Source: Candidatus Rokuibacteriota bacterium
Lineage (GTDB): Bacteria; Methylomirabilota; Methylomirabilia; Rokubacteriales; CSP1-6
Assembly: GCA_016200085.1 (NCBI GenBank)
Contig: JACQFL010000050.1
Location: 1-64,000 of the forward strand
Direction: 5' to 3'
Length of the DNA stretch: 64,000 bases
The translations under genes were made by a program, and so were the position numbers. The notes under the pieces are model-generated. The model searched no databases, was not told the origin of the DNA, and saw only the letters and a program-made list of their open reading frames with translations. Positions 5,058 through 29,158 of this stretch are shown here, in pieces; position 1 is the stretch's first letter; each line of letters begins with the position of its first letter.

Positions 5058-5161
5058 GGCGGCGGGCGTTCCTGACCGGCCTGGACGCCGTCGACTTCGC
5101 CCACGTCGACCGCAACCGCGGGACGCCGATCACCAGCGGGAAGGCGGCGGTGACGGCGTGA
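5054..5161 (+). CDS. Possible 35-residue coupled small protein
   Basis: A short frame starts at the GTG overlapping the cheW stop and ends at a TGA overlapping the MCP's GTG. It reads [19 protein letters not shown] then a short polar tail. It resembles no family I know. The GTGA junctions on both sides suggest it is translated, either as a micro-protein or simply to carry ribosomes from cheW to the MCP gene. Confidence 0.4.
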
Positions 5162-7056
5162 GTCCCGAGGCCACGAGCACGGAGGACAACGCGCCGATGA
5201 GCGCACCCACGCGTGGCGCACGCGGAGGGCTGCTCGGCAAGCTCATCCTGTTCCTCGTCCTGGTTCTCGTGCCCCTGGCGCTGGTGACCTGGACCATCGC
5301 GGTGCAGCAGCTGCGCGCCGCCATGACCGAGGCGCTCGTCTCCAAGGGCGTGGCCCTCGCCACCAGCGTGGCGAACGCGAGCGTCGACCTCGTCGCCACC
5401 CGCGACGCCTCGAGGGTCCAGGCCTTCGTCGAGCCGTTCACCTCGATCGGCGGGGTGGCCTACGTCGTTGTCCACGATCGTGACCGGCGGCTGATCGCCC
5501 ACACCTTCACGCCGGTGGTGCCGCCGGGGCTGGTCGAGAAGAACGTTCTCCCCGGCGGCGCCGCGCGCCAGGTGCGCGACGTCGAGTACGGCGACCCGGT
5601 GACGGGCGCGCGGCGCCGCATCGTCGACATCGGCGTCCCGCTGCTGGGCGGCCAGCTCGGCGCCGTGCGGGTCGGCATGGACCGGGACCGGGTCGACGCG
5701 GCCGCCTTCCGGCAGAGCGCGGCGCTGCTGGTGGTCATGGCCCTCGCGCTGCTCGGGGCCATGGCGGCGGCGATCTCCTTCGCGCGCCGCCTCACGCGGC
5801 CGATCACGGAGCTCGTCGGTGTGGCCCGGCGCGTCGGCCGGGGCGACCTCGGCCAGACGGTCACCGTGCGCGGCAGCGACGAGGTCGCCCAGCTCGCGGA
5901 GACCTTCAACGAGACGATCGTGCGCCTGCGCGCGCAGATCACCACCGGGGCCGAGCGCGACGAGGAGCGGCGCCGCCGCGAGGAGCTGCAGGCGCACATC
6001 ACGGAGTTCCTCGACACGGCCATGCTGATCGCCGCCGGCGACCTCACCCGGCGCGGCGAGGTGACCGCCGACGTGCTCGGCAGCGTGGTGGACGCCATCA
6101 ACGTGATGGTGGACGAGATCGCCCGCATGATCGCCCAGGTAAGGGCGACCGCGGCCGCGGTGGTCGCGCGCAGCACCGAGACCATGGAGGCGACGGCGAA
6201 GGTCACCGCGGGCGCCCGCTGGCAGTCGCAGGAGGCGGTGGCGGCCGGCCGCGCGGTCGAGCAGCTCGCCGCGTCGGTCCGGCGCGTGGCCCAGAGTGCG
6301 GTGAGCGCGTCGGCGGCGGCCGCCCAGGCCCTCGCCACCGCCCATGGCGGCGACCGGTCGGTGGGCGCGAGCCTCGCCGGCATGCAGCGCATCCGGGGCG
6401 AGGTCCAGGCCATCGCCAGGAAGATCAAGCGGCTCGGCGACCGCTCGCTCGAGATCTCGGCGATCGTCGACACCATCGAGGACATCGCGTCCCAGACGAA
6501 CCTGCTCGCCGTCAACGCGGCCATCGAGGCCGCGGGCGCCGGCGAGGGCGGGCTCCGGTTCTCGGTCGTGGCCGAGGAGATCCGCAAGCTCGCGGAGCGG
6601 GCGGCGAAGGCGACCAAGGAGATCGGCGGCCTCATCCACGGCGTGCAGACCGAGACCCACGAGCTCGTCGCGCTCATGGAGAACGGCACGCGCGAGGTGG
6701 AGGCGGGCTACCGGGTGACCGTGGAGGCCGGCGAGAGCCTCAAGCAGCTGGCCACGGTCGCCCAGAGCTCGGCCGCCCTGGCCGAGGACATCTCGGTGGC
6801 CGCGCGCGAGCAGGTGCGAGGCGTGGAAGGCGTGGCGCGGGGCGTGCAGGGCATCGCCGGGGTTGCCGGCGAGATGCAGCAGGCCGTCACCTCCGTGCGC
6901 GCGGCCATGGAGCACCTCGTCCGTGTCGCCGAGGCGCTGGAGGTGGACCTCGTTCGTTTCCGGCTGCCCGACGAGCCCGCCGATCCGCGAGTGGACGGAA
7001 ACGCCGGCCGGAGCAACGGCGCCGTCCGCGCGCTGGAGGCGTCGCTCGTGTCGTGA
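5158..7056 (+). CDS. Methyl-accepting chemotaxis protein (PilJ-like)
   Basis: A 632-residue membrane chemoreceptor. Order: a short cytoplasmic tail; TM1 at about 25-48 ([17 protein letters not shown]); an extracytoplasmic Cache-like sensor of about 135 residues; TM2 at about 187-206; a HAMP domain ([12 protein letters not shown] onward); a second HAMP-like stretch; then the long signalling coiled coil. The hairpin tip that contacts CheA and CheW is intact: [19 protein letters not shown] followed by [15 protein letters not shown]. The ligand is unknown. The start is a GTG overlapping the small frame upstream, and the stop overlaps the cheA GTG. Confidence 0.92.
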
Positions 7057-10618: not shown

Positions 10619-11413
10619 ATGCGGAACGTCCTGGTCATCGACGACAGCGTGAGCGTGCGCAAGGTCATCGAGCGCGCGCTGACCAACGAGCGCACCCACG
10701 TGCTCTCCGCCTCGTCGGGCGGCGAGGCGCGGGAGCGGATCGAGAAGGAGGCGCCCGACCTGATCGTCTGCGACGTGCTCATGCCGGACGTCGACGGCTA
10801 CGAGATCTGCGAGTGGGTGAAAGCGCATCCGCGCCTGGCCGGCACGCCGGTGTTGCTCATCTCCGGCGTGATCAACGACGCCGTGCGCGCGCGCGCCGCC
10901 CAGGCGCGGGCGGACGACCTGCTCGGCAAGCCCTTCGCGCCCGAGACCCTGCTCGCCGCGGTGGAGCGGCTGCTCGAGCGGGCGTACGAGCCGACCGCGT
11001 CCGCGACGCCGGGAGCGTTCGGGCCGCGCGCGGCCCCCGGCGACGGGGCCGTGCTCGCGCCGCCCGACCTCAAGCGGCTGCTCGAGCCCTTCGGCGCGAT
11101 GCCGGGCGTGCGGCTGGCCGCGCTCGTGGACCGGGACGGCTTCATCATCGAGTCCACGGGCGACGTCGCCGTCGACGCGGAGATCGTCGGCGCGCTGGCC
11201 TCCTGCCTCGGCGAGGCGTCGGCCGGGATCGGCCGCGAGCTCGGACACGGGGCGCTGCACGGGCTCCTGCTCGAGTACGACAAGGGCGTGATCTCGCTGC
11301 ACGCCGTCGGCGACGCCGCCATGCTGGCCCTTCTCATCGCGGAAGCGCCGGCGCTCGGGAAGGTCCGCTACTACGTCCGCAAGCTGCTGCCCGAGCTGGC
11401 GCGGGCGATGTAG
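10619..11413 (+). CDS. Receiver-Roadblock/LC7 fusion
   Basis: A 264-residue protein. Residues 1-120 form an intact receiver: acidic pair VIDDS, phosphoacceptor D52 in LIVCDVLMPD, and lysine in LLGKPF. Residues about 145-264 form a Roadblock/LC7 (MglB-like) domain (MPGVRLAALVDRDGFIIES). MglB-type Roadblock proteins are GTPase-activating partners of MglA, and mglA lies two genes downstream. A phosphorylatable receiver joined to such a domain is the obvious candidate for carrying the CheA signal to MglA. This is inference; the domain calls are firm. Confidence 0.85.
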   Translation: MRNVLVIDDSVSVRKVIERALTNERTHVLSASSGGEARERIEKEAPDLIVCDVLMPDVDGYEICEWVKAHPRLAGTPVLLISGVINDAVRARAAQARADDLLGKPFAPETLLAAVERLLERAYEPTASATPGAFGPRAAPGDGAVLAPPDLKRLLEPFGAMPGVRLAALVDRDGFIIESTGDVAVDAEIVGALASCLGEASAGIGRELGHGALHGLLLEYDKGVISLHAVGDAAMLALLIAEAPALGKVRYYVRKLLPELARAM

Positions 11414-13396
11414 ATGCGGCTCTCGCTCCTGTCGCCGGGCCTGGTGCTCGGCGTGGCGGCGCCCGCGCTCGGCTACGCCGTGGTGGTGCTCCTCGGTCTC
11501 AAGGCGAGCACCGCCGGCCGGCGATGGCGAGCGACGGTCAGCCTGATCGCCGGTCATCTCGCCTGCCTCGGAGTGCTGGCCGCGCTCCTCGCCGCCGCGC
11601 AGCCCGGCGCCTACCTGCACGCCGTGGAGGCGATGCTGCAGGCGGTCACGGTCTCCCCGATGGCGCAGCTCGCGTGCGCGCTCTTGATGGCGCTGCCGCT
11701 GTGGAGCGTGCTCTCGAGCCCGGCGCCCGCGAGCGCCCGCCGCGAGCGCCGCTCGCACCATGCCCTCGACCCCGGCGGGGGCGCCGCTCGCCTGAACGGG
11801 CGCTCCGGCGCGCTCGCCGGGCTGCCGGCGTCGCGCCTCGATCCGGCGCCCGCCCCGCCGCTCGCCGTGGGCGCCGTCCCGACGCCCGCAGCGGCGCCGT
11901 CGGGCGCCGTCGCGGCCGTCACCGGCGCGCCTGTCACCGACGCGCCCGTCACGCCATGGCCGGCCGCCGGGCCGCTGACGGAGGAACCGCCGACGAGCGA
12001 GCCGCTGGACAGCCCGGGGGGCTCGAGGCGCGTCGCCCCGCTGGACGTCGACGAATCGGTCGCCCCGCTGGACGGCGACGAATCGCGCCTGGCCATCACG
12101 TTCGGCCGCGTCCGGAGCCAGCTGCCCGAGAAGGCGTTCGGCTGCCCCCTGGACGAGCTCGGGCCGCGGCTCACGACACCGGGCTGCCTGCTGGTCCCGC
12201 GCGCGCTGGTCGAGTCCCAGCTCCCCGAGGGCCTCGTCACGGTGTCGTGGGCGCTCGTCGCGGACCAGTTCCCGCGGCCGGCCGTTCTGTGGGCGGAGCC
12301 CGAGATCGTCGCGCGGCTCGTCGGCGGCGCGCTCCAGCTTCCGCTCGACGAGGTCGTGGCCCGGTGCTGGGCCACCATCACCGACGGCGCGCTCCCGAGC
12401 GCGAGCGACACCGACCTCACGCCGTTCCCCGATCTGTTCCATCCGGCCGCGCCCTCCGCGGCCGACGACCGGCCGCCGGTCGTGCCGACCCCGCTCGTCA
12501 TCGCCGGCGTCGAGCGAGTGATGAGCGATGCCGAGCAGACCGCCGCCGAGGAGGTCGCGGTCGGCGAGTCCGTGCGCGCCCGCGACGGCGTCGACGCCGC
12601 GGCGGACGACCTCATCCCTGCCGTCGCGCCGGAGGCGGAGCCCTCCCTGCGCCGGGGCGCGGACCTGACCGACGACGTCGCCACGCTGGTCGGCAGGCTC
12701 AGGGACGTCCTCGAGCGGTGGCGCGTCGGCCCTGCCTTCGCGTGGGACGCCTGCGCCGTCGAGGGACGGCCGGTCGTGGCGCTCGCCGGGAACGGGCACG
12801 CGCCCCGCGACCTGGCGCGGGTGGCCGGTCGCCTCGCGCACGTGTTCGAGACCGACACGGCCCTCGGGGCCGTGACCGAGATCGACGTCCGCCGCGCCGG
12901 CGCCACCGTCGTGGTGCTGCGCCCCGACGTCGCGGCCGCGCGGGGCCCGCTCGTCACCGCCAGCGTCAGCGGCCGGGGCACGCTGGCGTTCGCGGAGATG
13001 CTCTGTCGCCGGATCGTCGAAGGCTGCGGTGGCGCGCCGGCGGTCCGGGAGGCCGTCGCCGCGGGCGCCGCGCCGGCCATGACGGATCGCCTCGTGCGCA
13101 GGGCGGCGGGTCCGCCCGTGCGCGTGATCGCGCCGGCCGGCCGCGACGCGGACGACGTCGCCGCGGCGGCCCAGAGGCTCTTCGCCCTCGTCGAGGCGAC
13201 GGCGCTCGAGAGCGAGGAGGACGGCGCGGACGAGGTCAGCGCGCGCCTGGCCGGTGACGTGCGGCTCACGGTCAGGCCGCTGGACGACGGCGGCGCGGCG
13301 GGGGCGCTGCTGGCGCTGCTGTCCCCGGCGGGACTGCCGCGCGGTCAAGGGCGGCGGTGGCTCGCGCGCGTCACGCCGGCGGGGCCCGGGGCCTGA
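11414..13396 (+). CDS. Membrane protein of unknown function next to mglA
   Basis: A 660-residue protein I cannot assign. The first 100 residues hold about three membrane segments (LVLGVAAPALGYAVVVLLG; a second near 45-65; a third near 85-100). A Pro/Ala/Thr-rich linker follows, then a globular block near 230-320 (EKAFGCPLDELGPRL, GCLLVPRALVESQLP). Residues about 415-640 contain two alpha/beta stretches that could be diverged Roadblock-like domains. It starts one base after the receiver-Roadblock gene and ends two bases before mglA, so a role in that switch, for example as a membrane anchor, is likely but unproven. Confidence 0.6.
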   Translation: MRLSLLSPGLVLGVAAPALGYAVVVLLGLKASTAGRRWRATVSLIAGHLACLGVLAALLAAAQPGAYLHAVEAMLQAVTVSPMAQLACALLMALPLWSVLSSPAPASARRERRSHHALDPGGGAARLNGRSGALAGLPASRLDPAPAPPLAVGAVPTPAAAPSGAVAAVTGAPVTDAPVTPWPAAGPLTEEPPTSEPLDSPGGSRRVAPLDVDESVAPLDGDESRLAITFGRVRSQLPEKAFGCPLDELGPRLTTPGCLLVPRALVESQLPEGLVTVSWALVADQFPRPAVLWAEPEIVARLVGGALQLPLDEVVARCWATITDGALPSASDTDLTPFPDLFHPAAPSAADDRPPVVPTPLVIAGVERVMSDAEQTAAEEVAVGESVRARDGVDAAADDLIPAVAPEAEPSLRRGADLTDDVATLVGRLRDVLERWRVGPAFAWDACAVEGRPVVALAGNGHAPRDLARVAGRLAHVFETDTALGAVTEIDVRRAGATVVVLRPDVAAARGPLVTASVSGRGTLAFAEMLCRRIVEGCGGAPAVREAVAAGAAPAMTDRLVRRAAGPPVRVIAPAGRDADDVAAAAQRLFALVEATALESEEDGADEVSARLAGDVRLTVRPLDDGGAAGALLALLSPAGLPRGQGRRWLARVTPAGPGA

Positions 13397-13398
13397 CG

Positions 13399-14010
13399 AT
13401 GTCCGTCATCAACTACGCCGCGAAGACCGTGAACTTCAAGATCGTCTACTACGGCCCGGGCGTCGCCGGCAAGACGACCAACCTGCAGCTCCTCCACCGC
13501 CGGCTGCCGGAGGAGTCGCGCGGCGAGATGGTCACGCTGAACACCGGTGACGACCGCACGCTGTTCTTCGACTTCCTGCCCGTCTCCGCGCTCGACGTGC
13601 GCGGCTTCGCCACGCGGTTCCAGCTGTACACGGTTCCCGGCCAGCCGTACTACAACATGACGCGCAAGCTGGTGCTCCGGGGCCTCGACGGCGTCGTGTT
13701 CGTGGCCGACTCCCAGTGGGCCCGCGCGCACGACGCGGTGGCCAGCTTCCGGAACCTCGAGGAGAACCTGCGCCAGTACGGCGTGGACCTCGACCGGCTG
13801 CCCTGCGTGCTGCAGTACAACAAGCGCGACCTGCCCGGGGTGGCGCCGCGCGAGTATCTCGACTTCCTCCTCAATCGCCGGCGGGCGCCCATGCCCGCGT
13901 TCGAGGCGGTGGCCACGACGGGCGCCGGCGTGTTCGAGACGCTGAACCGCATCGCGCGGATGGTGCTGGCCGCGGAGTTCGGCGCCGACCCCCGCGCCGG
14001 GGCGGCGTGA
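13399..14010 (+). CDS. mglA: MglA-family Ras-like GTPase
   Basis: A 203-residue small GTPase. The P-loop GPGVAGKT is at 19-26. The Walker B region reads TVPGQ with T78, as in MglA, where Ras has D-x-x-G. N141-K-R-D144 is the guanine-specificity motif. MglA sets front-rear polarity and recruits motility machines in gliding and twitching bacteria and is reset by Roadblock MglB. The ATG at 13399 is chosen because homology starts there (MSVINYAAKTVNFKIVYYG). The stop overlaps the GTG of the prepilin peptidase, which joins the polarity module to the pilus genes. Confidence 0.96.
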   Translation: MSVINYAAKTVNFKIVYYGPGVAGKTTNLQLLHRRLPEESRGEMVTLNTGDDRTLFFDFLPVSALDVRGFATRFQLYTVPGQPYYNMTRKLVLRGLDGVVFVADSQWARAHDAVASFRNLEENLRQYGVDLDRLPCVLQYNKRDLPGVAPREYLDFLLNRRRAPMPAFEAVATTGAGVFETLNRIARMVLAAEFGADPRAGAA

Positions 14011-16015: not shown

Positions 16016-16207
16016 ATGACCAAGCTGATGACAGCCCTGAGAGACGAGAGCGGGATCGAGACCCTGGAGTGGATCGCGGTCGGCGTGCTGATCCTCATCG
16101 TCGCCTTCGCGATCTATCCCGGCGCGCTGCAGGGCGCGCTGAACACCGTGGTGGGCAACGTCGGCAACGCGCTCACGACCCAGTCCCAGAACCTGGGCGG
16201 CAGCTGA
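16016..16207 (+). CDS. flp: Flp-type major pilin
   Basis: A 63-residue Flp/Fap prepilin. The leader ends in DESG, cleavage would leave IETLEWIAVGVLILIV, and glutamate is at +5, with tryptophan at +6 where Flp pilins usually have tyrosine. A single hydrophobic helix is followed by a short polar tail. A strong Shine-Dalgarno (AAAGGAGA) precedes the ATG, the best in the operon, which fits a highly expressed structural subunit. The TadV-type peptidase at 14007 would process it. Confidence 0.92.
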   Translation: MTKLMTALRDESGIETLEWIAVGVLILIVAFAIYPGALQGALNTVVGNVGNALTTQSQNLGGS

Positions 16208-17670: not shown

Positions 17671-18120
17671 ATGGGACGATTCGCGACGGGCTGGGTGACG
17701 ATCGCGCTCGCGGCGGTGACCGGCATCGCCGGCGCGCAGACGCCGCTGCGCTTCCACGTGGGCGTCGACAGGTCGCGGATCCTGGAGCTCGAGGAGCCGA
17801 TGACGAAGGTCGCGATCACCACGCCCGCCATCGCGGACGTGTCGGTCCTCTCGCCGACCTCGTTGCTGGTGAACGGCAAGTCCGCCGGCGTCACCTCGCT
17901 GCTCGTGTTCGGCCGGAGCCGCCCGGCGCGCGCCTTCGACCTGGTGGTGCAGCCCGGCCCGCTGGTGGAGCCCGGCGCGCCGCCGCCCGACGTCGAGGCC
18001 CACGGCGTGCAGGTCCAGCGCGGCGACAAGATCACCGTCCAGGTCTTCGTGCGCGACCGCGCGCGCGCCTGGCTGGAGCTCGGCGCGGGCCGGCCGCCGG
18101 CGGAGGCGACGAAGCGGTGA
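17671..18120 (+). CDS. Stand-alone secretin N-domain protein
   Basis: A 149-residue exported protein (signal ending GIAGAQT) consisting only of the pilus/secretin N-terminal domain. Its [19 protein letters not shown] and [16 protein letters not shown] match [19 protein letters not shown] and [16 protein letters not shown] in the full secretin that starts at its stop codon, so it is a tandem partial paralogue. It lacks the beta-barrel secretin domain. It could cap or seed the secretin ring, or form a mixed N-ring. Confidence 0.8.
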
Positions 18121-19529
18121 CGGTGGCCGGGCGCGCCGCCGCCGTCGCGATTGCGCTGGCCCTCCTGGCGGCGGCCGCCGGGCCGGCCGTCGCGCAGCCG
18201 GCGGCGGCCGGGGGCGTCATCCGCCTCGACGTCACCATCGGCAAGTCCCAGGTGGTCGACCTCAAGGAGCCGTTCACGCGGGTCTCGGTCACGAGCCCCG
18301 CCATCGCCGACGTGTTCGTGGTGACGCCCAACCAGATCCTCATCAACGGCAAGGCGGTCGGCGTCACCTCGCTGGTCGTCTTCTATCCCGAGCGCACGGT
18401 CTTCTTCGACCTGACCGTGACCACCGACGTGGGCCTGCTCCAGGAGCGGCTCAGGCAGGTGGCGCCGCGCGACGAGATCCACGTCTACCCGGCGGGGGAG
18501 GCCATCATCCTCACCGGCGCGGTCTCCAGCTCCGCCGTCGCCGCCGCCGCCGCCGAGGTGGCGGCCACGGTGGCCCCGAAGGGCAGGGTCGTGAACCTCA
18601 TCACCCTGACCGACGTGAAGCCGCAGCAGGTGCTCCTGCAGGTGCACGTCGCCGAGGTGGCGCGCTCGGCCCTGCGCGAGCTGGGGCTCAGCATCCGCGC
18701 CCTCGGCGGCAACACCCTGATCGGCGCCGCGATGGCCGGCAATCCCTTCACCGCGGCCCTCGGGGCCCTCGGTCCCACCATCCTCGGCCCGGCGAGCCAG
18801 TCGCAGCAGTTCACGCCGGACTTCAACTTCGACGGCGCGCACATCTTCCTGTCCGACGCCAACCGCAACTACTCCGGGCTCGTGCACGCTCTGGCCGAGC
18901 GCAACCTGCTGCGCACGCTGGCCAAGCCGAACCTCGTCACCCAGAGTGGCAAGGAGGCCAAGTTCCTCTCGGGCGGCGAGTTCCCGTTCCCCGTCGCGCA
19001 GCAGAACAACACGCTCTCCGTGGAGTTCAAGGAGTTCGGGGTGGGGCTGATCTTCACGCCCGTGGTGGTGGACGGCGACACCATCAACCTGCGGATCCTG
19101 CCCCAGGTCTCGAGCCTCGACTTCTCGCAAGGCCTGATCTCGGCCGGCTTCAAGATCCCGGTGATCCGGAAGAACCAGGCGTTCACCACCGTCAGCCTCC
19201 GGGACGGCGAGTCCTTCGCCATCGCCGGCCTGATCAACAACGAGGTGCGGCAGGCGGTGGACAAGGTCCCGCTGCTCGGCGACATCCCCATCCTCGGGGC
19301 CCTGTTCCGCAGCACCCGGTTCCAGAACAACGAGACCGAGCTCGTCTTCCTCGTCACCGTCAAGCTCGTGAAGCCGGCCCCGGCGGGCGCCGCGGCCGCG
19401 CCCGATCCCGCCGCGCTCATGGAGCTGCGGGAGGCCGAGAAGAAAGAGTTCACGCTCGTGCCCGGCGTGCCCGGCGTCGGCGAGGTCGTGGACCGGCCCT
19501 TCGGGACGAGCAACCTGCCGGAGCCATGA
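18117..19529 (+). CDS. cpaC: Tad secretin CpaC/RcpA
   Basis: A 470-residue outer-membrane secretin: signal peptide to about residue 27 (AVAQPAAA), a secretin N-domain, a BON-like segment ([18 protein letters not shown]), then the type II/III secretin domain ending in the family signature [14 protein letters not shown]. It forms the gated channel for the Flp pilus. The GTG start overlaps the stop of the stand-alone N-domain gene. Confidence 0.95.
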
Positions 19530-20872
19530 CGAGCGGGCCACCGCGGACCGAGCCCGCGGCCGGCGCGCGTCCCGGCGCCCGGCTGCGCGGGCACGCCGGC
19601 CACGCCGAGCTCAAGACACGCATCCACCGGCAGCTCATCGAGCGCCTGGACCTCTCCAAGGTGGGCGCGGTCCGGCCGGAAGCGCTGCGCCTGCAGATCG
19701 GGCGGATCGTCGAGGAGATGCTGGTCGGCGACGACACGCCGCTCACGCGCCACGAGCGCGAGCAGATCATCGTCGAGATCCAGCACGAGACCTTCGGGCT
19801 GGGGCCGCTGCAGCCCCTCATGCAGGACCCGACGGTGTCGGACATCCTGGTCAACGGCGCCGCCGCCGTCTTCGTCGAGCGCCGCGGCAAGCTGGAGCGC
19901 ACGAGCGTCCGGTTCCGGGACGACGCGCACCTGCTGCAGATCATCGAGCGCATCGTCTCCGCGGTGGGCCGGCGGGTCGACGAGTCGTCGCCGATGGTCG
20001 ACGCCCGCCTCGCCGACGGTTCCCGCGTCAACGCCATCATCCCGCCGCTGGCGCTCGACGGGCCGGTGCTCTCGATCCGCCGCTTCGCCGTCGATCCACT
20101 GAAGATGGACGACCTCCTGCGCCTGCGCACGCTGACCCCGGCGCTGGCCGAGTTCGTGGCCGGCGCGGTGCGGGCCCGCCTCAACGTGCTCGTCTCGGGC
20201 GGTACCGGCGCGGGCAAGACCACGCTGCTCAACGTGCTCTCCAACGCCATCCCCGCCACCGAGCGCATCGTCACCATCGAGGACTCCGCCGAGCTGCAGC
20301 TGCAGCAGGAGCACGTCGTCCGCCTGGAGACGCGGCCGGCCAACGTGGAGGGCGTGGGCGCGGTCGTCCAGCGCGACCTGGTGCGCAACGCGCTCCGGAT
20401 GCGCCCCGACCGGATCGTGGTCGGCGAGGTGCGCGGTGCCGAGGTGCTGGACATGCTCCAGGCCATGAACACCGGCCACGACGGCTCGCTCTCCACCGTC
20501 CACGCGAACGCCTCGCGGGACGCGCTGTCGCGGGTCGAGACCATGGTCCTGATGGCGGGCGTCGCGCTGCCGATCCGCGCGCTGCGAGACTACATCGCCT
20601 CGGCCCTGGACATGATCGTCCACGTCGCGCGGCTGAGCGACGGCACCCGGAAGATCGTCCGGGTGACCGAGATCGCGGGCATGGAGGAAGACGTCATCAC
20701 CACCCAGGACATCTTCGTGTTCGAGCAGCAGGGCATCGACCGCGACGGCCGCGTGGTCGGCTTCCATCGCGCCACCGGCGTCCGTCCCAAGTTCAGCGAC
20801 CGCCTCGGCCGCGCCGGCATCCAGCTGGGCGACCAGCTCTTCGACCCGTCGCGGCGGCAGGCCTCCGTCTGA
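19526..20872 (+). CDS. tadA: Tad pilus ATPase TadA/CpaF
   Basis: A 448-residue secretion ATPase of the VirB11/GspE superfamily that powers pilus assembly and, in Tad systems, probably retraction. Walker A is [13 protein letters not shown] (about 226); the His box region reads [20 protein letters not shown]. There is no separate PilT-like ATPase in the locus. The start overlaps the secretin stop, and its own stop overlaps tadB by one base. Confidence 0.96.
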
Positions 20873-21792
20873 TGGCGCTGCTCGCCGCCGCCGTCGTCTT
20901 CGCCGCGGTGGCCGTGCTCGTGGCCGGCGTCTGGCTGGCGTCGCTGCCGCGCCAGCGCGCCGGCGCCCGCCTGCGCGTCGCCGGCCCGGCGGACCCCGTG
21001 GACGCGGCGATCCTGCGCGCCCAGATCCCCCGCGGCCGCGGGCTGTCGCTGGTCGCGCGGCTGGCGCGGCTCGCGGGCCAGAGCGGCTACGCCGGCACCG
21101 TGGCCGATCTCCTGTTCCTGATCGGCGTCTTCTCCGTGGGCGGCGGCATCATCGGCTGGTTCCGCGCCGGCGGCCCCGTCTGGGCGCTGCTGGGCGCCGC
21201 GGTCGTGGGGCCCTTGCCGATCGCCTCCGTGGTGTACCGGCGCTACCACCGCATCAAGGTCTTCCAGGAGCAGTTTCCGGACGCGCTCGACATGATCGCG
21301 CGCTCGATCCGCGCGGGCCACGCCCTGGGCGCGGCCATCCGCACCGTGGGCGACGAGCTGCCGCCGCCGGTCGGCGAGGAGTTCACGAAGGTCGCCGAGG
21401 AGGTGCGTCTGGGCCGCGACCCCTCGGAGGCGCTGTTCCACCTCGAGGACCGGGCGCCCACGGAGGACGTGGCGTTCTTCTGCGCGGCGCTGCGGATCCA
21501 GCGCAACGCCGGCGGCAACCTCGCCGAGATCCTCGACCGGCTGAGCGAGGTGATCCGCGAGCGGTTCAAGCTGCTGAGCCACGCGCGGGTGCTGTCGGCC
21601 CAGCACCGCTACACCGCCATCTGCGTGGGCCTGTCGCCCATCATCTTCAGCGTGGTCTTCCAGGTGATGCGGCCGGGATACTTCGCCCCGCTGCTGGAGT
21701 CCCCCCTTGCGCCGTGGGTGCTCGGCACGGGCGTGGGGCTCGAGGCCGTCGGCTTCCTGCTCATCTGGCGCATCGCCACGGTGAAGGTGTGA
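20872..21792 (+). CDS. tadB: Tad inner-membrane platform protein TadB
   Basis: A 306-residue T2SSF-domain membrane protein. Hydrophobic segments lie at the N-terminus, at about 82-120, and at the C-terminus; the cytoplasmic T2SSF block contains FPDALDMIARSIRAGHALG. It pairs with TadC to form the platform on which TadA acts. The gene overlaps both neighbours by one base. Confidence 0.93.
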   Translation: MALLAAAVVFAAVAVLVAGVWLASLPRQRAGARLRVAGPADPVDAAILRAQIPRGRGLSLVARLARLAGQSGYAGTVADLLFLIGVFSVGGGIIGWFRAGGPVWALLGAAVVGPLPIASVVYRRYHRIKVFQEQFPDALDMIARSIRAGHALGAAIRTVGDELPPPVGEEFTKVAEEVRLGRDPSEALFHLEDRAPTEDVAFFCAALRIQRNAGGNLAEILDRLSEVIRERFKLLSHARVLSAQHRYTAICVGLSPIIFSVVFQVMRPGYFAPLLESPLAPWVLGTGVGLEAVGFLLIWRIATVKV

Positions 21793-22742
21793 TGGTGCTG
21801 CTCGCCGCGGTGGCGCTGACGTTCGTCACGGGGCTCGGCGTGACCCTGCTCGCCGCCTACCTGTTCCTCAGAGCGTGGCCGGCCGTCAGCGCCGACCGTC
21901 TCCGCCCCGCGCTCTCGCCCATCGACGACGCCGAGGCGTTGCGGTTCGAGGACCGGCCCCGGCCGCGCGCCCTCGAGGTCGCCGAGCGGATCGGCCGGAG
22001 GTTCGGCACCCACGACGCCGGCAAGCTGTCGGCCTACCGCCGCAAGCTGCTCGTCGCCGGCTTCCCCGACCCGCGCGCCGTCGCCGTGCTCGTGGGCGCC
22101 AAGATCGGGCTCGCGGTGACCGCCCCCGCGCTGTACCTCTTCTGGGGATTCGTCGTCCTGCAGCGGGCGCTGCCGAACCTCGCGCCGACCTGCGTCGCCC
22201 TCGCCGCCGCCGGCCTCTTCGCGCCCGATGTCTGGCTGCGCAGCCGCCGGGTGGCCCGCCAGCGCGAGATCGTCAACGCCCTGCCCGACGTCCTCGACCT
22301 GCTCATGGTGTGCGTCGAGGCGGGCATGGGCTTCGACGCGGCGGTCGCCCGCGTGGCGGAGCAGCCGCCGCGCCGTGGCAGCCCGCTGCACGACGCGCTC
22401 ATGCTCATGCACCTGGAGACACGGGCCGGACGCGGGCGCGAGGAGGCGCTCCGCGCCCTCGCCGAGCGTACCGGGGTCGCCGAGGTGCGCTCGATCGTCA
22501 GCGCGTTCATCCAGACCGACCGCCTCGGCACCCCGCTCGGCCGGACCCTGCGCGTGCACGCGGAGGCGGCCCGGGTGGCGCGGCGGCACCGGGCCGAGGA
22601 GCGCGCCCAGCTCGCACCGGTCAAGATGATCTTCCCCACGGTGTTCTTCCTCATGCCGTCGTTCTTCCTGGTGGCCATGGGGCCGTCGCTCCTGCTCCTC
22701 ATGAAGCTGTTCTCGTCGATGGGAGGGCTGCAACCGAGATGA
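21792..22742 (+). CDS. tadC: Tad inner-membrane platform protein TadC
   Basis: A 316-residue T2SSF-domain protein and second platform subunit. Characteristic segments are NALPDVLDLLMVCVEAGMGF and the C-terminal FPTVFFLMPSFFLVAMGPS membrane helix. ATG overlaps the tadB TGA by one base. Confidence 0.93.
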   Translation: MVLLAAVALTFVTGLGVTLLAAYLFLRAWPAVSADRLRPALSPIDDAEALRFEDRPRPRALEVAERIGRRFGTHDAGKLSAYRRKLLVAGFPDPRAVAVLVGAKIGLAVTAPALYLFWGFVVLQRALPNLAPTCVALAAAGLFAPDVWLRSRRVARQREIVNALPDVLDLLMVCVEAGMGFDAAVARVAEQPPRRGSPLHDALMLMHLETRAGRGREEALRALAERTGVAEVRSIVSAFIQTDRLGTPLGRTLRVHAEAARVARRHRAEERAQLAPVKMIFPTVFFLMPSFFLVAMGPSLLLLMKLFSSMGGLQPR

Positions 22743-23350
22743 ACCGGACGGCACGATGGATCGCGGCGGGCCCGCTCCTCGCCACCCTGGCCCTCGCGGC
22801 GCCGGTGGTCGCGCAGGATCGCGTGGCGGAGGTCAAGACGTGGGACGGCCGGACGTGGCGCCTGAGCCAGCCGACGTTCGAGGTGTTCTACACGATCATG
22901 GCGCCCGGCGCCCCCGCGCTGGATGGCGGCGGGCCGGCGGCGCCGTCCGGCGGCGGCCCGATGATCATTCCCCAGACGATGGGCGCCCAGCGGGGGTTCG
23001 GCACGCTGCAGGCCGAGGCGCAGGCGCTCGAGCGCCGCGGGGTGGACTCCACCCAGGGACGCCGCGCGCGCAACACGCTGACCGTGAGCCGCGCGGGCGT
23101 CGAGACGCAGGTGCCGGTCGAGCGCATCGCGAGCCTCGTCCTCAGCCGCGCCCCGGTCACGATCAACCGCCTGCCGCCCCACGTCGCGCGCGCCCACTTC
23201 CGGTACGCCGCGCGCATCGTGCTGATCGACGGCGCGGTCGTGGACGCCGACGCGGTGAGCCTCGGCACCACGATCCTGCGCGGGACGGCGGCCGAGGGGC
23301 GCGTCGACGTGCCCTGGGAGGCCATCGAGTCCGTCCGCTTCACGAGGTGA
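22739..23350 (+). CDS. Exported protein of unknown function in the Tad operon
   Basis: A 203-residue protein with a Sec signal (LLATLALAAPVVAQ). The mature part starts with a small beta-rich segment (RVAEVKTWDGRTWRLSQPTFEVFYTI), then a Gly/Pro-rich linker, then two stretches, VPVERIASLVLSRAP and VPWEAIESVRF, that look like an internal duplication. I do not recognise a family. The coupled start inside the Tad run suggests a periplasmic or pilus accessory. Confidence 0.65.
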   Translation: MNRTARWIAAGPLLATLALAAPVVAQDRVAEVKTWDGRTWRLSQPTFEVFYTIMAPGAPALDGGGPAAPSGGGPMIIPQTMGAQRGFGTLQAEAQALERRGVDSTQGRRARNTLTVSRAGVETQVPVERIASLVLSRAPVTINRLPPHVARAHFRYAARIVLIDGAVVDADAVSLGTTILRGTAAEGRVDVPWEAIESVRFTR

Positions 23351-23354
23351 CATC

Positions 23355-24596
23355 ATGACGACGCACATCGGTCGCGGGCGGGACCGTCTGGCAAACGAGC
23401 GGGGCAGCATGCTGCTGTTCACCACCGGACTGCTGGGCCTGTTCCTCGTCATGGGCGGGGCCGCCGTGGACCTCGCCTACCTGGCCGCCGCCAGCGGCGA
23501 GATGCAGCGGAGCGTCGACGCCGCGGCGCTGGCGGGCGCGGGCAAGCTCGGCTTCGACGCCACGGTGTTTTCCACCGTGCGTGCGACGGCGCAAACCTAC
23601 GCGGCCGCCAATCCCTACCGTGACCTCGCGCAGGCCGGCGCGTACAGCAACGTCGCCCTCGGGCTGAACACCGGCAACGCCACGACGGGCAGCATCGTGC
23701 TCGGGCTCTGGGATCCGGCCAAGCCGGCGGGCATCGGCGCCGGCAGGCGCTTCGAGCCCTCCCTCGACGGCACGCGGGTCAACGCCGTGCTCTGCCAGTA
23801 CCAGGCGACCGTGCCGCCCACGTTCCTCAGGCTCATCGGCCAGACCTCGCTCGGCGCGGCGGTGCAGGCCATCGCGGTCTCGAACCCGCCCTCCGGCCTG
23901 CCCGCGTCGGCGCCGCTCTTCCCGATCGGCGTCAGCCCGTGCAGCTTCGCCAACAACAGCTCGGCGGGGTGCGGCGGCCAGCTCAGCATCCAGTTCGCGC
24001 CGACCCCGAACAACAACGGCGCGTGGGTCAACATCCACGGCACGGGGACGCCGAACGCTGCCCAGACGAGGAACGACATCACCGCCGTCGCGAACGGCAC
24101 GCCGGCCGGATCGACCTTGACGGTTGATTCCATGGTGGGGACGGACAACGGCGAGGAGCAATCCGCCTTCGACACCCTGGCCGACGACTTCGTCACGAAG
24201 TTCAACGCCTCGGCCGGCCATCCGATCATCATCAAGGACTCGTCGGGCAACGTCGCCTACAGCGGACAGGGCTGGCTCGTGTACGTCCCCGTCATCGCGA
24301 CGACGTGCCCGCCGGGACCGGTCAACAACACCGACAACATCGTCGGCTGGACGCAGTTCGTCATCACCCAGGTCTTCGACAAGAACCGCGGCGTGCGGCA
24401 AGGCGGCGCCGCCCGGGGCTGCATGGTCGTCAACCACAACCCCGCCGTCAACATCTGGGACGCCGACTGCACGAATGCGCCGCCGCAGACCGCGACGATC
24501 TACGGGATCTTCGACTGCGCGCCCATACAGGGGCAGTCGCTCGCGACGCCGGGACCGCGCACCGCGCTCGCCACCCGCATCAAGCTGGTGAACTGA
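23355..24596 (+). CDS. tadG: TadG-like pilus assembly protein
   Basis: A 413-residue protein with the TadE/TadG N-terminal pattern: a short basic tail with ERGSMLLFTTGLLGLFLVMG forming the single membrane helix, then AVDLAYLAAASGEMQRSVDA AALAGA, the usual Flp-pilus TadG_N motif. The large extracytoplasmic region contains several cysteines and no clear von Willebrand A metal site. The family call rests on the N-terminus and on context. Confidence 0.8.
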   Translation: MTTHIGRGRDRLANERGSMLLFTTGLLGLFLVMGGAAVDLAYLAAASGEMQRSVDAAALAGAGKLGFDATVFSTVRATAQTYAAANPYRDLAQAGAYSNVALGLNTGNATTGSIVLGLWDPAKPAGIGAGRRFEPSLDGTRVNAVLCQYQATVPPTFLRLIGQTSLGAAVQAIAVSNPPSGLPASAPLFPIGVSPCSFANNSSAGCGGQLSIQFAPTPNNNGAWVNIHGTGTPNAAQTRNDITAVANGTPAGSTLTVDSMVGTDNGEEQSAFDTLADDFVTKFNASAGHPIIIKDSSGNVAYSGQGWLVYVPVIATTCPPGPVNNTDNIVGWTQFVITQVFDKNRGVRQGGAARGCMVVNHNPAVNIWDADCTNAPPQTATIYGIFDCAPIQGQSLATPGPRTALATRIKLVN

Positions 24597-24597
24597 G

Positions 24598-25353
24598 ATG
24601 CGCGCCAGGCGCGCCCGTGCCATGTGGCTTGCTCTGCTGGTGCTCTCGGCCCCCGCCGCGGGCGGATGCGCGGCGGCGGGCATGGCCGTCAGCCCCGTGA
24701 TGTCAGCCGTCCAGGCCGTCGCTTACCGGCGCGTCGAGCGGACGTTCGCCGAGGAGCGGCCGATCGTGGGCGTCGCGCTCGTCGACGTCCTGCTGCGCGC
24801 CGGCGTCGAGATCGGCGCCGTGGAGCGGGACGAAGACACCTGGACGCTGCGCGCGCGCAGCGAAGGCGTCACGGTCACGGCGTCCCTGGCGCTCGTGACC
24901 TCCCGGCTGACCCGGGTGACCATGGGCGTCGAGACCGGCGGCATCATCGCCGACAAGGACACGGCCGCCGAGATCCTCGGCCAGGTGGCCGCCACGCTCG
25001 CGGCCCGCTCGGCGCCCGCCGCCGGCCTCCGCGATCGCCAGGCCGCCGCCCAGGCGGAGGCCCTCGGAGCGCTCCGGGAGGAGATCCGTCGCATCCGCCT
25101 CGAGCTGGCCGGCCGGGAGAGGGCGCGGCCGCCCGCCGCGGCGCCCGCGCCGGTCGCACCGATCGTCGTCGTGCCGCCGTCGTACGGCGTCCCCACCGTG
25201 ATGACGCCGCCGTCGCCGAGCGCGCCGGCCGTCGCCGTGGCGTCGCCCGCCGTCGCCGCGGTGGCGTGGCCGCTCCCACCACTGGAACCGCTGGGCGCCC
25301 CCATGGCCCTGCACCCCGTCGGCACGCTGCCTGCGGCGCCGTCGCTGCGATAG
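24598..25353 (+). CDS. DUF3568-like lipoprotein
   Basis: A 251-residue lipoprotein. The signal ends in APAAGGC with C24 as the lipidated residue. Residues about 40-140 resemble the small DUF3568 lipoprotein domain (YRRVERTFAE, VEIGAVERDEDTWTLRA). A short charged helix (LGALREEIRRIRLELAGRER) follows, then a long Pro/Val/Ala-rich tail of the kind that spans the periplasm. It could act as a pilotin or envelope tether for the Tad secretin; this is inference from position. Confidence 0.6.
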   Translation: MRARRARAMWLALLVLSAPAAGGCAAAGMAVSPVMSAVQAVAYRRVERTFAEERPIVGVALVDVLLRAGVEIGAVERDEDTWTLRARSEGVTVTASLALVTSRLTRVTMGVETGGIIADKDTAAEILGQVAATLAARSAPAAGLRDRQAAAQAEALGALREEIRRIRLELAGRERARPPAAAPAPVAPIVVVPPSYGVPTVMTPPSPSAPAVAVASPAVAAVAWPLPPLEPLGAPMALHPVGTLPAAPSLR

Positions 25354-25438
25354 CCCGGATCGTCATGGACGACGCGCGCGCGTCCTACGGCGTCGCGCCC
25401 GCTGGGCCGCGAATCTAGAGCCCCGGAGGCGAGCGGCG

Positions 25439-26992
25439 ATGGCGGTCACCACGGCGCGGGTTCCCGATGCGGCCGCGTGGATCGGCGAGGACGATCCCGG
25501 CGCGGCGCCGTCACGCCTGCAGGCGTTCAGGACGCGGCGCGAGCGCCGCCACCGCCGCCACCGCCTCGGTGTCGCGGCGTACGTCTCCGTCCTCGTGCAC
25601 CTCGGCCTCGTCGCCGTCGCCCTGCGGGCGCTGACCGCGCCGGCCGGGCACGACGTCGACGTGTTCGCGGCCGCGACGATCGTCGAGCTCGCCGACGCGG
25701 ACGACCGACCGGCGCCGCCCGTGGCCGCCCCGCCGGCGGCCACGCCATCCGTGGCCACGCCCGCCCGGACCGCCGCCATGCCGGCGCGGGCCTGGACGCC
25801 CGGGGCCACGGCCCCGGACGCGGAGCTCACGCTCGCGTCCGCCGACGCTGAGGCTGGCGTGACGGACGCCGGGACGTCGCTCCAGCCCGCGGCGCTCGTC
25901 GTCGACGCCCCCGCGCCGCCGCCGGCGGCCGTCCTCGCGGCGTTGCCCGTCGCGCCGCCGCACGGCAGCCCGTGGGGCGCCGGGCTCGGGCCCGTCGTGC
26001 TGAGGCTGGACGGGCCGCGAACGCGGACGACCACGCGCCCGTCCGAGACGATCTCGGGGCGCGTCGTGGGGGGGACGCCGGCCCGCCTGATCGTGGACGC
26101 CAACGACGTCGAGCGTGAGATCGCCCTTCGCGGCGACGCGTTCGAGGCCACCGTGGCGCTGCGCCGGGGGCTGAACGTGGTGCGCGTGCGCGCGGTCGAC
26201 GCGAGCGGCACGCCGACGGAGGAGACGATCGCCGTGGACTTCACGCCGCCGCCGCCCGCGGTGGCGATCACGTCGCCCGGCGACGGGCAGGTGGTGACGG
26301 CCGCGACCACGACCGCCATCGAGGGCGTCGTGGACGCGGACGGTGACTTCACGGTCTGGATCGTCTCGGGTGACCGCGAGGTCGCCGTCCCCGTCCGGGA
26401 TGGCCGCTTCAGGCAGATCGTTCCCCTCACGGCTCCGGTCGTCCGGCTGTGGGCCGAGGTGCGACCCGAGGGCGGACCGGCCGTCCGCAGCGAGCCGGTG
26501 ACGATCGTGACGAGCCTCGAGCCGGTGGCGGTGCTGGCCATGGACTGGGTCGATACGGGGCCCGGCCTGGAAGCGGAGGTCCGGGCGAGCTGGCGGTCGC
26601 GCGCGGACCGGGCCGATGCCGCGGCCCAGCCCCTGGCCCTCGGGAGGATCGCCGCCGCGCACAACGCCCGGTTGCCCGAGCTCGTGTACCTGAAATCGCC
26701 CCGGCCCGGCGTCTACACGTTCGAGGTCCGCTACCGCGGCCCGGCCCCGGCGGGCGCCTCGCTGCGTCCCGTGCTGTACCTGCCGGCCGAGGGCGGGCTC
26801 AAGGCGAAGAGCCCGCAGCGGACGGTCCTCGACGGGTCGGGACAGGTCGTCGTGGCGAGACTCCTCCTGCCCCAGGGCGTGCTGTGGGACGACACGGAGT
26901 GGTTCACCGGGCAGAGCGAGAGCGCGGACACGATCACGAGGTTCCGGCTCCCCGAGGGCGTGGTGTGGACCGAGGCCAAGACCGCGCGATGA
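25439..26992 (+). CDS. TonB-like anchored protein with Ig-like domains
   Basis: A 517-residue protein. A basic cytoplasmic tail (RRERRHRRHRLG) precedes one membrane helix (VAAYVSVLVHLGLVAVALRA), as in TonB-type proteins, then a Pro/Ala linker. Two Ig-like/bacterial beta-sandwich units follow, the second starting PPPAVAITSPGDGQVVTA. The C-terminal 150 residues are unassigned. No TonB C-terminal domain is seen. Its stop overlaps the next start. Confidence 0.6.
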   Translation: MAVTTARVPDAAAWIGEDDPGAAPSRLQAFRTRRERRHRRHRLGVAAYVSVLVHLGLVAVALRALTAPAGHDVDVFAAATIVELADADDRPAPPVAAPPAATPSVATPARTAAMPARAWTPGATAPDAELTLASADAEAGVTDAGTSLQPAALVVDAPAPPPAAVLAALPVAPPHGSPWGAGLGPVVLRLDGPRTRTTTRPSETISGRVVGGTPARLIVDANDVEREIALRGDAFEATVALRRGLNVVRVRAVDASGTPTEETIAVDFTPPPPAVAITSPGDGQVVTAATTTAIEGVVDADGDFTVWIVSGDREVAVPVRDGRFRQIVPLTAPVVRLWAEVRPEGGPAVRSEPVTIVTSLEPVAVLAMDWVDTGPGLEAEVRASWRSRADRADAAAQPLALGRIAAAHNARLPELVYLKSPRPGVYTFEVRYRGPAPAGASLRPVLYLPAEGGLKAKSPQRTVLDGSGQVVVARLLLPQGVLWDDTEWFTGQSESADTITRFRLPEGVVWTEAKTAR

Positions 26993-27915
26993 TCCACGCC
27001 GCGATCCGGATGCTCGCCGCGAGCCAGAACGTGGACGGAGGCTGGGGCAGCCGGCGTGGCCGGCAGAGCGCCACCGAGCCGACGGCCTTCGCGCTGCTCG
27101 CGCTCGCTCACCTCGGCGCAGGCGAGCTGTCCGGAGCCATGGCGCGCGGCACATCGTGGCTCGAGGGACAGCAGCGGGCGGACGGCAGCTGGCCCGCGAC
27201 GGTGCGCGTCGACGAGGGTGGATGGCCCACCTCGGCGGCGGTGCTGGCGATGGCCGCGCTGGCCGGCAACCGGCCGTCCGCGCTGCGCGGCGCGGGCTGG
27301 CTGCTGACGCAGCCCGTCTACCGGGAGAGCGCCATCGACGCGCTCGCGCGCCGCCTGGGGCGCCGGCGCTGGGACTTCGGCGATCTGGACCCGGGCCTCG
27401 CCGGATGGCCGTGGGTGGGCTCGACGGCGAGCTGGGTGGAGCCGACCGCCTACGCGCTCATGGCGCTCAAGAAGCTGCGCCCGGGACGCGATCCCCGGTG
27501 GGCGCAGCCGCGGCTGGGGGAAGCCGAGGCGATGCTGCTGAACCGGACCTGCCGCGACGGCGGCTGGAACTACGGCAACCGGGAGGTGCGAGGCCAGGCG
27601 CTGCCGGCGTTCCCCGACGTCACTGCGGCCGCGCTCATCGCGCTGCGGGACGTCCTCGACCCTCCCGTCGCGGCCGAGAGCCTCGGGGCGCTCGAGCGGA
27701 TGCTGGAGCAGGTCCGCTCGGGGCTCAGCCTCGGCTGGGGCGTGCTCTGCCTCGAGCTCTACGGCGTGCCGGCCGCGCGGCACGCGCGCGCGCTCGCGCG
27801 CGCCTGGGAGGCGACGCGCTTCCTGGGCGACACGAAGACGATCGCGCTGGCCGTGCTCGCGCTGAGCGACGGCGCCGCGGTCTTCATCGCGCCCGAGCGT
27901 GCGCGCGGGGGTTGA
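26989..27915 (+). CDS. Prenyltransferase/squalene-cyclase-repeat protein
   Basis: A 308-residue protein made of alpha-alpha barrel repeats of the prenyltransferase/squalene-oxidase type: SQNVDGGWGSRRG, QRADGSWPATV and CRDGGWNYGNREV, each followed by a helix with xxxTAxALLAL. Catalytic DxDD of squalene-hopene cyclases is absent, and the protein is about half their length, so cyclase activity is doubtful; a binding or structural role is as likely. ATG overlaps the preceding stop. It forms a pair with the DUF362 gene downstream. Confidence 0.7.
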   Translation: MIHAAIRMLAASQNVDGGWGSRRGRQSATEPTAFALLALAHLGAGELSGAMARGTSWLEGQQRADGSWPATVRVDEGGWPTSAAVLAMAALAGNRPSALRGAGWLLTQPVYRESAIDALARRLGRRRWDFGDLDPGLAGWPWVGSTASWVEPTAYALMALKKLRPGRDPRWAQPRLGEAEAMLLNRTCRDGGWNYGNREVRGQALPAFPDVTAAALIALRDVLDPPVAAESLGALERMLEQVRSGLSLGWGVLCLELYGVPAARHARALARAWEATRFLGDTKTIALAVLALSDGAAVFIAPERARGG

Positions 27916-27922
27916 GCGGGCC

Positions 27923-28876
27923 GTGCTGACCCGTCGCGCGTTCGTGACCGCCGCGCTCGCCGGCGCGATGACGGGCGGGTGCCGCCAGGACCGGCGCTGG
28001 ACGCGGTCGGCCTGGCGACGGCCGCCCAGCTCGCGGGTGGCCATCCTGCCGGCGATCGACTACACGCGACCGCTGGCCGACGTCGTGCTGAGCGGGCTGC
28101 GCCTGTTCCGTCTCGACGTGCGCGACCGGCGCGTCGTGCTCAAGCCGAACCTCGTGGAGTTCGACCCGGCCGGGGTGATCAACACCCATCCGACCGTCGT
28201 CGCGGCCGCCATCGACGCGTTTCGCGCGCTCGGCGCGCGCGAGGTGCTGGTGGCCGAAGGGCCGGGGCACCGCCGCGACACCGAGTATCTGTTGACCGCG
28301 TCGGGACTGCACGCCGCGCTCGAGGCGCGCGGCGTCCCCTACGTCGACCTGAACCAGGACGACGTGACGCGCACGCGCCTGCTGTCCTCCTACACCGGGC
28401 TCGGCCACCTCTATCTGCCCGAGACGATTCTCGACGCCGACCTGCTCGTGTCGATGCCGAAGCTCAAGACGCACCACTGGGCCGGGGTCACCCTGTCGCT
28501 CAAGAACATGTTCGGGGTCGTGCCCGGCGGCGTGTACGGCTGGCCCAAGAACGTGCTGCACTGGGCCGGCATCGCCGAGAGCATTCTCGACATCAACGCC
28601 GCGCTCGCGATGCCGCGCTTCGCGATCGTCGACGGCGTGGTCGGGATGGAAGGCGACGGCCCCATCCGGGGCGGGCCGCGCGCCGTGGGCGTGCTCGTGA
28701 TGGGGGAGGACTGGGTGGCCGTCGACGCCACCGCGGCGCGGCTCATGACGATCGACCCCGAGGGGATCGGCTATCTCGCCGAGGCCGCCCGCTTCCTCGG
28801 CAACGCGTCGGAGGCCGCCGTCGTGCAGGTCGGCGAGCCGATCGAGAAGTTCGCGCGGAGGTTCCGGCCGGCCTGA
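27923..28876 (+). CDS. DUF362 protein, predicted Tat lipoprotein
   Basis: A 317-residue DUF362-family protein. The chosen GTG gives a start LTRRAFVTAALAGAMTGGC: twin arginines, a hydrophobic stretch and a lipobox cysteine, so it is probably exported by Tat and lipidated. Family motifs include VVLKPNLVEFDP, VNTHP-type INTHPTVV, and MPKLKTHHWAGVTLSLKNMFG. No extra ferredoxin cluster motifs are present. An earlier GTG at 27899 would overlap the previous gene by 17 bp. This is the last gene of the plus-strand run. Confidence 0.78.
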   Translation: MLTRRAFVTAALAGAMTGGCRQDRRWTRSAWRRPPSSRVAILPAIDYTRPLADVVLSGLRLFRLDVRDRRVVLKPNLVEFDPAGVINTHPTVVAAAIDAFRALGAREVLVAEGPGHRRDTEYLLTASGLHAALEARGVPYVDLNQDDVTRTRLLSSYTGLGHLYLPETILDADLLVSMPKLKTHHWAGVTLSLKNMFGVVPGGVYGWPKNVLHWAGIAESILDINAALAMPRFAIVDGVVGMEGDGPIRGGPRAVGVLVMGEDWVAVDATAARLMTIDPEGIGYLAEAARFLGNASEAAVVQVGEPIEKFARRFRPA

Positions 28877-28893
28877 CGATCGAGAAACTTCAC

Positions 28894-29120
28894 CGTTCGG
28901 CTCGCCGCGGCGGCAGCGGCTCACCTCACACGGATTCCGAAATGTCCCTGCTCGGCCGAGCGCGCGGTGCGCGCTCACCTCGCCCCCCGTTCGGCTCGCC
29001 GCGGCGGTAGCGGCTCACCTCACACGGATTCCGAAATTTCCCTGCTCGGCCGAGCGCGCGGTGCGCGCTCACCTCGCCCCCCGTTCGGCCCGCCGCTGCG
29101 GCAGCGGCTCACCTCACACG
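28894..29120 (+). repeat. 94-bp tandem repeat, about 2.4 copies
   Basis: Copies begin with CGTTCGGC at about 28894, 28988 and 29082, and carry CAGCGGCTCACCTCACACGG and CTCGGCCGAGCGCGCGG. The first two are nearly identical; the third stops after the CTCACACGG block. The array fills the gap between the DUF362 gene and the LLM gene at 29159 and could affect its expression. It has no spacers. Confidence 0.85.
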
Positions 29121-29158
29121 GCCACGTGCTATCATCGCGGGCACCCGGGAGGCGTGCC

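Follow-up and report, generated by a model that had tools for sequence, protein, structure and literature searches.

A stretch of 64,000 nucleotides (nt) from contig JACQFL010000050.1 of a Candidatus Rokuibacteriota bacterium (assembly GCA_016200085.1), hereafter the window, carries a Tad pilus operon which is followed by genes for a protein with a prenyltransferase-type fold (PT) and for a protein of family DUF362. These two genes form a previously undescribed pair that is found in several bacterial phyla and is enriched there beside Tad genes and Flp pilin genes. The Flp pilins of PT-bearing genomes frequently end in Ala, Gly or Ser followed by a final Ser, written here as [AGS]S, an association that is partly confounded by ancestry. 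The reading we prefer, to which we give a probability of roughly 0.42, is that PT and DUF362 make up an exported two-protein complex that is accessory to type IV filaments (Tad pili in most cases) and acts on the pilin, probably on its C-terminal tail. In the portions of the open-access literature retrieved, neither DUF362 nor squalene-cyclase-like proteins are joined to Tad pili, co-mentions of 'Tad pilus' and 'squalene' being left unassessed.

A scan of genome contigs gave 65 relatives of PT, including one doubtful match (L067) which was kept. Their record titles name Acidobacteria, Verrucomicrobia, Planctomycetes, Gemmatimonadetes, Deltaproteobacteria and others; titles of metagenome-assembled genomes can be wrong, and those of L021 and L051 are suspect. 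In 59 of the 65 loci the PT gene is followed by a DUF362 gene on the same strand. Starts were called by script, and the DUF362 start overlaps PT in 40 of the 53 pairs with a called start, 18 of them by 4 nt, one of the 40 (-487 nt) being a miscall. Among the loci lacking DUF362 are L018, where the contig ends, and the weak match L067; the others are considered below. The DUF362 marker was present in 6/198 and 8/199 genomes of two evenly drawn sets, and PT adjoins it in 13 of these 14 genomes (weakly in G493; there is none in G462).

Genomes behind 50 of the 65 PT loci were tested, and 47 of these 50 had CpaF, compared with 41/198 and 40/199 in the two drawn sets as a whole. With the seed genomes G107 and G071 excluded, CpaF was found in 7 of 12 drawn genomes with the DUF362 marker, one copy being partial, compared with 73 of 383 without it (Fisher p = 0.004). 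Leaving out the partial copy gives 6 of 12 (p = 0.018), and taken separately the G107 set gives p = 0.27 and the G071 set p = 0.03. Rescoring of 40 CpaF-negative genomes found CpaF in none. In the fetched DNA (about 10 kb), 10 of the 59 pairs are accompanied by tad assembly genes, 19 by a Flp pilin gene and 20 by either. Of 49 genomes, 17 have a Flp gene at most 10 kb from PT, compared with about 0.6 expected by chance. A single TadB-TadC-PT-DUF362 run was seen (L108, G275), although CpaF was not found in G275; in L019 the pair is followed by four consecutive Flp genes. Pilin genes of the N_methyl type precede PT by about 40 nt in L024 and by about 160-170 nt in L111 and L112. The last two belong to genomes in which CpaF was not detected (G378 and G476), and other type IV filaments may therefore be served by the pair as well. 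A strict dependence of the pair on Tad was rejected because there are PT-DUF362 genomes without detected CpaF.

The pilins were counted with profiles of our own, seeded with pilins of these loci, rather than with Pfam. Only matches with E of 1e-6 or lower and at most 90 residues were kept, and genomes G202, G378, G462, G476, G458, G304 and G233 were left out. The controls were the 61 of 70 Tad genomes without the DUF362 marker that were kept after filtering and removal of genomes with no match. All figures are for the matches listed, of which not every one was read. Ser was the last residue in 70% of 131 distinct pilins of PT-bearing genomes compared with 10% of 102 control pilins, and Ala, Gly or Ser was penultimate in 79% and 36%, respectively. 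Among the matches listed, 26 of 30 pilins encoded within 10 kb of PT had the [AGS]S end, as did 67 of the 110 other pilins of PT-bearing genomes and 6 of the 102 control pilins. The second of these counts rules out a Ser tail confined to pilins adjoining the pair. Scored by genome, at least one [AGS]S pilin was present in 38 of 46 PT-bearing genomes (34 of 41 where DUF362 was seen beside PT), compared with 5 of 61 controls, or 5 of 66 with the addition of the PT-negative Tad members of the window's class (0/5), a contrast with p = 1e-16 when related genomes are counted as independent. A fairer contrast, limited to the drawn genomes and G012, was 4 of 8 versus 5 of 66 (p = 0.006). Within the class, the pilin ends in GGS in both PT-bearing genomes, and in Ser in none of the five PT-negative Tad genomes whose pilin was read. 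Singulisphaera acidiphila DSM 18658 carries the pair (L038), and the ends of the three pilins read from it are GS or AS. Clustering at 60% identity was tried as a control for ancestry, but single linkage lumped nearly everything and matched pairs were used instead. Of 14 mutual-best pilin pairs across the groups, the [AGS]S end is confined to the PT-bearing side in five and absent from both sides in nine; in none is it confined to the control side. In one comparison the cores are 70% identical, and the pilin of the PT-bearing genome (G076) ends in YTGAS where that of G453 ends in YTG.

The model of PT is a single alpha/alpha toroid (predicted local distance difference test, pLDDT, 93.8; predicted template modelling score, pTM, 0.92). 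It matches squalene-hopene and drimenyl cyclases with Z about 25 at about 20% identity, and GH76 enzymes and epimerases with Z about 22. The fold is common to many enzymes and so does not give the function. As the preliminary description had stated for the window's protein, the catalytic DxDD motif is missing; it was found in none of 49 PT sequences (the window's and 48 aligned relatives), and terpene cyclisation was rejected on this ground. No Cys or His is conserved at 80% or more in the 49, and zinc-dependent prenyl transfer was rejected for lack of such ligands. No hydrophobic N-terminal segment that could act as an export signal was seen in any of the 49. Residues W140, W142, W149, P152 and T153 and the motif DGGWNYGN are present in all of them.

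The DUF362 protein of the window matches PF04015 with 171.2 bits (gathering score 24). An RR pair occurs within the first 45 residues of 39 of 41 DUF362 sequences, in 34 as RRx[FLVAI], the motif of the twin-arginine translocation (Tat) route. Twelve residues are present in all 41, namely K180, K182, H184, H185, W186, K194, N195, W207, P208, K209, N210 and H213. Its model (pLDDT 90.2) is predicted to adopt the fold of LarA, the nickel-pincer racemase: it matches 4nar, which is an uncharacterised protein of Thermotoga, and 11 chains of LarA or malate racemase type with Z 15.0-17.4, and the next row has 7.1. According to the part of PMC11770544 available, DUF362 and LarA are placed in the same Pfam clan and K184 is the cofactor lysine of LarA. 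In a weak and non-significant profile alignment (E 0.45), with numbering counted by hand, DUF362 H184 falls on LarA H174, and the +10 spacing of the invariant K194 equals that of LarA K184.

The C-terminus of a Flp pilin ends up outside the inner membrane, so that an exported complex could reach the tail. PT lacks a signal and is therefore proposed to be a passenger on the Tat signal of DUF362; the overlapping genes, the single signal and the shared neighbourhood suggest a Tat 'hitchhiker' pair. Such export of signal-less partners is a known route, as described in the available parts of PMC4273604 and PMC10924467. The two proteins would be made together from their overlapping or abutting genes, PT would fold onto DUF362 in the cytoplasm, and both would leave through the Tat pore. 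Outside, the complex would be held by the N-terminus of DUF362 or by a lipid, the cavity of the PT toroid would recognise the [AGS]S tail of the Flp pilin, and the LarA-like DUF362 would perform the chemistry. The pair, its linkage to pilus genes, the Tat motif, the folds as models and the tail association are observed; that the two proteins form a complex, that they are exported together, that the tail is recognised and that the pilin is modified at all is our inference. A more specific version makes the exported heterodimer a new pilin-processing enzyme, in which the toroid reads a tag of a small residue and Ser, and the LarA-type nickel-pincer subunit (or one using a similar hydride transfer) alters the terminal serine (epimerisation and oxidation are examples) to leave the pili capped, cross-linked or sticky. 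This version must be regarded as highly speculative and very unlikely as it stands.

A number of observations weigh against the proposed accessory complex. In four loci (L006, L015, L022 and L025) PT is without a DUF362 gene over about 10 kb, yet the genomes concerned (G063, G072, G079 and G082) carry [AGS]S pilins. CpaF was not found in six genomes with the pair (G064, G067, G105, G202, G378 and G476), and the Flp pilin search also found none in G067 and G105. For 39 of the 59 pairs the fetched DNA, which came from short contigs in some cases, shows neither tad nor Flp genes. The N_methyl pilins adjoining PT end in GT or IN and have no Ser. No [AGS]S pilin was found in 8 of the 46 PT-bearing genomes (G060, G069, G071, G074, G075, G081, G104 and G109) nor in the drawn genomes G275, G284 and G493; the pilins of G470 end in LS, and five control genomes do carry [AGS]S ends. 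PT-bearing genomes also have a second class of Flp pilin ending in GATGQ or GASGQ. Screening of the control genomes relied on the DUF362 marker and did not include PT. Pilins and genomes are related, so that the counts overstate independence. Within the window's class, six of the eight CpaF genomes lack PT. The presumed pilin of the window does not reach the gathering score of PF04964 (Flp/Fap) and has no Pfam match up to E 0.01. Finally, the Flp tails are outside and would be beyond the reach of PT unless it is exported.

The second Flp class is very uniform (...SIGATGQ or ASGQ), with no Ser end in the copies read, and was seen in G070, G073, G074, G076, G080, G086, G087, G089 and G106.

Several of these points would be expected if the envelope task of the pair were unrelated to pili, its place in Tad operons being due to shared regulation and the Ser tail to pilin ancestry. 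The pairs with no tad or Flp gene nearby, the six genomes without detected CpaF and the non-significant association in the G107 draw alone all fit this explanation. Against it, Flp genes are near PT far more often than the 0.6 genomes expected, the matched pilins carry the Ser end on the PT-bearing side only in five pairs, and the gene order differs among loci of different groups, which suggests that the linkage between pair and pilus arose more than once. We consider this explanation unlikely. We give the same weight to a scheme in which a sugar or isoprenoid-linked donor is provided or tailored by the pair and is then attached to the pilin by a separate membrane glycosyltransferase, with the terminal Ser as acceptor. 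The PT toroid does match sugar epimerases and GH76 enzymes, and RcpC is implicated in glycosylation of Flp in the part of PMC12307814 available. Large membrane proteins that are GT-C-like by eye lie beside the pair. One family, family X, was seen at 8 of the 59 pair loci of L003-L067, as well as at two Tad loci of the window's class that lack PT (L080 and L081), and a second family follows DUF362 in L007, L019, L030, L032 and L049, with Flp genes adjoining in four. However, the tested members of both families have no Pfam or NCBIfam match above cut-off, 'glycosyltransferase' being a reading by eye, neither family is present at most pair loci, and the export signal of DUF362 would be odd for donor synthesis. 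A further proposal makes PT a cytoplasmic proofreading chaperone, which keeps back DUF362, the Tat protein, until the cofactor has been inserted and leaves DUF362 to act outside alone. The overlapping genes and the restriction of the Tat motif to DUF362 would suit a chaperone, and known Tat chaperones are helical. The invariant PT motifs WxW...W.xPT and DGGWNYGN resemble a binding or active site, though, and four loci carry PT with no DUF362 in reach, and we judge the chaperone to be distinctly improbable.

Family X has the motif DSDTGWH and was seen in L021 (11803-13362, minus strand), L008, L009, L010, L020, L027, L048, L050, L106, L107, L080 and L081. In L049 the membrane-protein open reading frame after DUF362 (4715-6316) continues in frame into C-terminal Flp pilin sequence, and is either a fusion or an assembly error.

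The accessory complex we prefer comprises two of the four proteins encoded directly after TadG. The preliminary description had suggested that all four (a lipoprotein, a TonB-like/Ig protein, PT and DUF362) may form one envelope complex that anchors or modifies the pilus. A survey of 60 genomes of the class, the window's own included, found CpaF in 8, PT in 2 and the Ig protein in 7. The Ig protein was present in 5 of the 8 CpaF genomes compared with 2 of the 52 without CpaF (p = 0.0002), and both PT genomes carry CpaF (p = 0.016). Profiling against CpaF thus shows enrichment of the Ig protein and of PT-DUF362 in CpaF genomes, which is strict for neither, and the four genes are not found mostly apart from Tad. 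The Ig proteins without detected CpaF are in G002 (L104), which is listed as 100% complete, and G049 (L105), where the contig is just 4.7 kb. Genome G012 has TadG-Ig-PT-DUF362 with no lipoprotein detected, and G051 has TadG-Ig without PT. Both the lipoprotein and the Ig protein are present without PT in G017 (L082) and G050 (L077), the Ig protein of G050 being divided between two contigs; a further, weak relative of the lipoprotein is in L105. Among the loci read, all four genes occur together in the window only. The relatives keep lipoprotein/Ig and PT/DUF362 apart, and the four genes are therefore not one unit, so that a single complex is not supported. Lipoprotein and Ig protein are a class-level Tad feature to which PT-DUF362 is an add-on, and they would be envelope components of the Tad machine in their own right, specific to the class. 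Modification of the pilus gains support for PT-DUF362 from the pilus linkage and the Ser tail, and anchoring gains none.

The features are collected in Table 1. That the four genes continue the Tad run, as first described, was borne out by the four plus-strand open reading frames. Their starts were said to be coupled, which is correct for TadG and the lipoprotein, 1 nt apart, and for Ig and PT, which overlap by 4 nt (ATGA). It is nearly so for PT-DUF362 (7 nt gap, using start 27923) and wrong for lipoprotein-Ig (85 nt gap). For DUF362 the GTG at 27923, which reads VLTRRAFVTAALAGAMTGGC and includes the twin-arginine, is preferred over the listed GTG at 27899. Its description as a Tat-lipoprotein holds for the twin-arginine start, while the lipobox (TGG-C) is non-canonical. 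The presumed Flp pilin lies between CpaE and TadE; it seeded the profile that scored it, which makes that score circular, and its identification is by motif, size and place only. When PF04964 was applied to two other pilins, that of L050 passed (61.3 bits) and that of L019 failed (25.2 versus 32.2).

Table 1. Features of the window, and N_methyl-type pilin genes before PT in other loci (Tad core names presumed from gene order and relatives)
Feature	Position	Strand	Basis
Presumed Flp pilin, 63 residues, end ...NLGGS	16016-16207	+	SGIETLEW prepilin-like motif, hydrophobic stretch, place
Tad core, presumably CpaC, CpaF (19526-20872), TadB, TadC and a small class-conserved protein (~22751-23350)	18117-23350	+	
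TadG-like protein	23355-24596	+	Pfam Tad_C and Tad above cut-off
Lipoprotein, class-level Tad neighbour	24598-25353	+	Signal with Cys in the reading frame; no Pfam match above cut-off
TonB-like/Ig protein	25439-26992	+	Glucodextran_B (Ig-like) 2.8e-10; one N-terminal hydrophobic segment, Pro-rich part, Ig-like domain
PT, squalene-cyclase-like, modelled as one alpha/alpha toroid	26989-27915	+	Pfam SQHop_cyclase_C 3.7e-9
DUF362, Tat-type signal, predicted LarA-like fold	27923-28876	+	Pfam DUF362 (PF04015) 3.7e-50
N_methyl-type pilin before PT	L024 9430-9933		Pfam N_methyl above cut-off
N_methyl-type pilin before PT	L111 616-1203		Pfam N_methyl above cut-off
N_methyl-type pilin before PT	L112 7484-8110		Pfam N_methyl above cut-off

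The small protein between TadC and TadG has no family match above cut-off, and recurs in five of the seven Tad loci of relatives that were read. The genes that lead into the Tad operon (10619-14010) encode a response-regulator/Roadblock protein, a large protein that matches no Pfam family and an MglA-like GTPase whose Arf match is just under cut-off, and they suggest polarity control of the pilus. Just 3' of DUF362 (28893-29121) is a 94-nt tandem repeat. Two of its copies are 98% alike, and a third extends over at least 41 nt.

Both DUF362 and stand-alone squalene-cyclase-like proteins are common, and most of them have, to our knowledge, no assigned function; one clade of each is now linked to type IV filaments. 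If the preferred reading is true, a C-terminal processing step would be added to pilus biology and the LarA fold would gain a role beyond small-molecule racemisation. PT shares the toroid with squalene-hopene and other class II terpene cyclases, with SQHop_cyclase_C above cut-off, but has one toroid of about 300 residues and no DxDD. Protein farnesyltransferase beta subunits, which are toroid relatives by profile (E about 1e-7), read protein C-termini. Protein prenyltransferase beta subunits have conserved Asp/Cys/His zinc ligands, whereas PT is without a zinc site of that kind and the pilins here are without a CaaX tail. Compared with LarA, DUF362 carries a Tat motif, its sequence match is not significant, there is no counterpart of R75 in the weak alignment, H116 is one position off H108, and H213 is at +29 instead of +26. 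Of the catalytic and cofactor residues of LarA, H174 and K184 thus have plausible counterparts by position, and H108 and H200 have residues near theirs. Like RcpC and other Tad accessory proteins, PT and DUF362 are encoded with tad genes, but they differ from these in matching other protein families.

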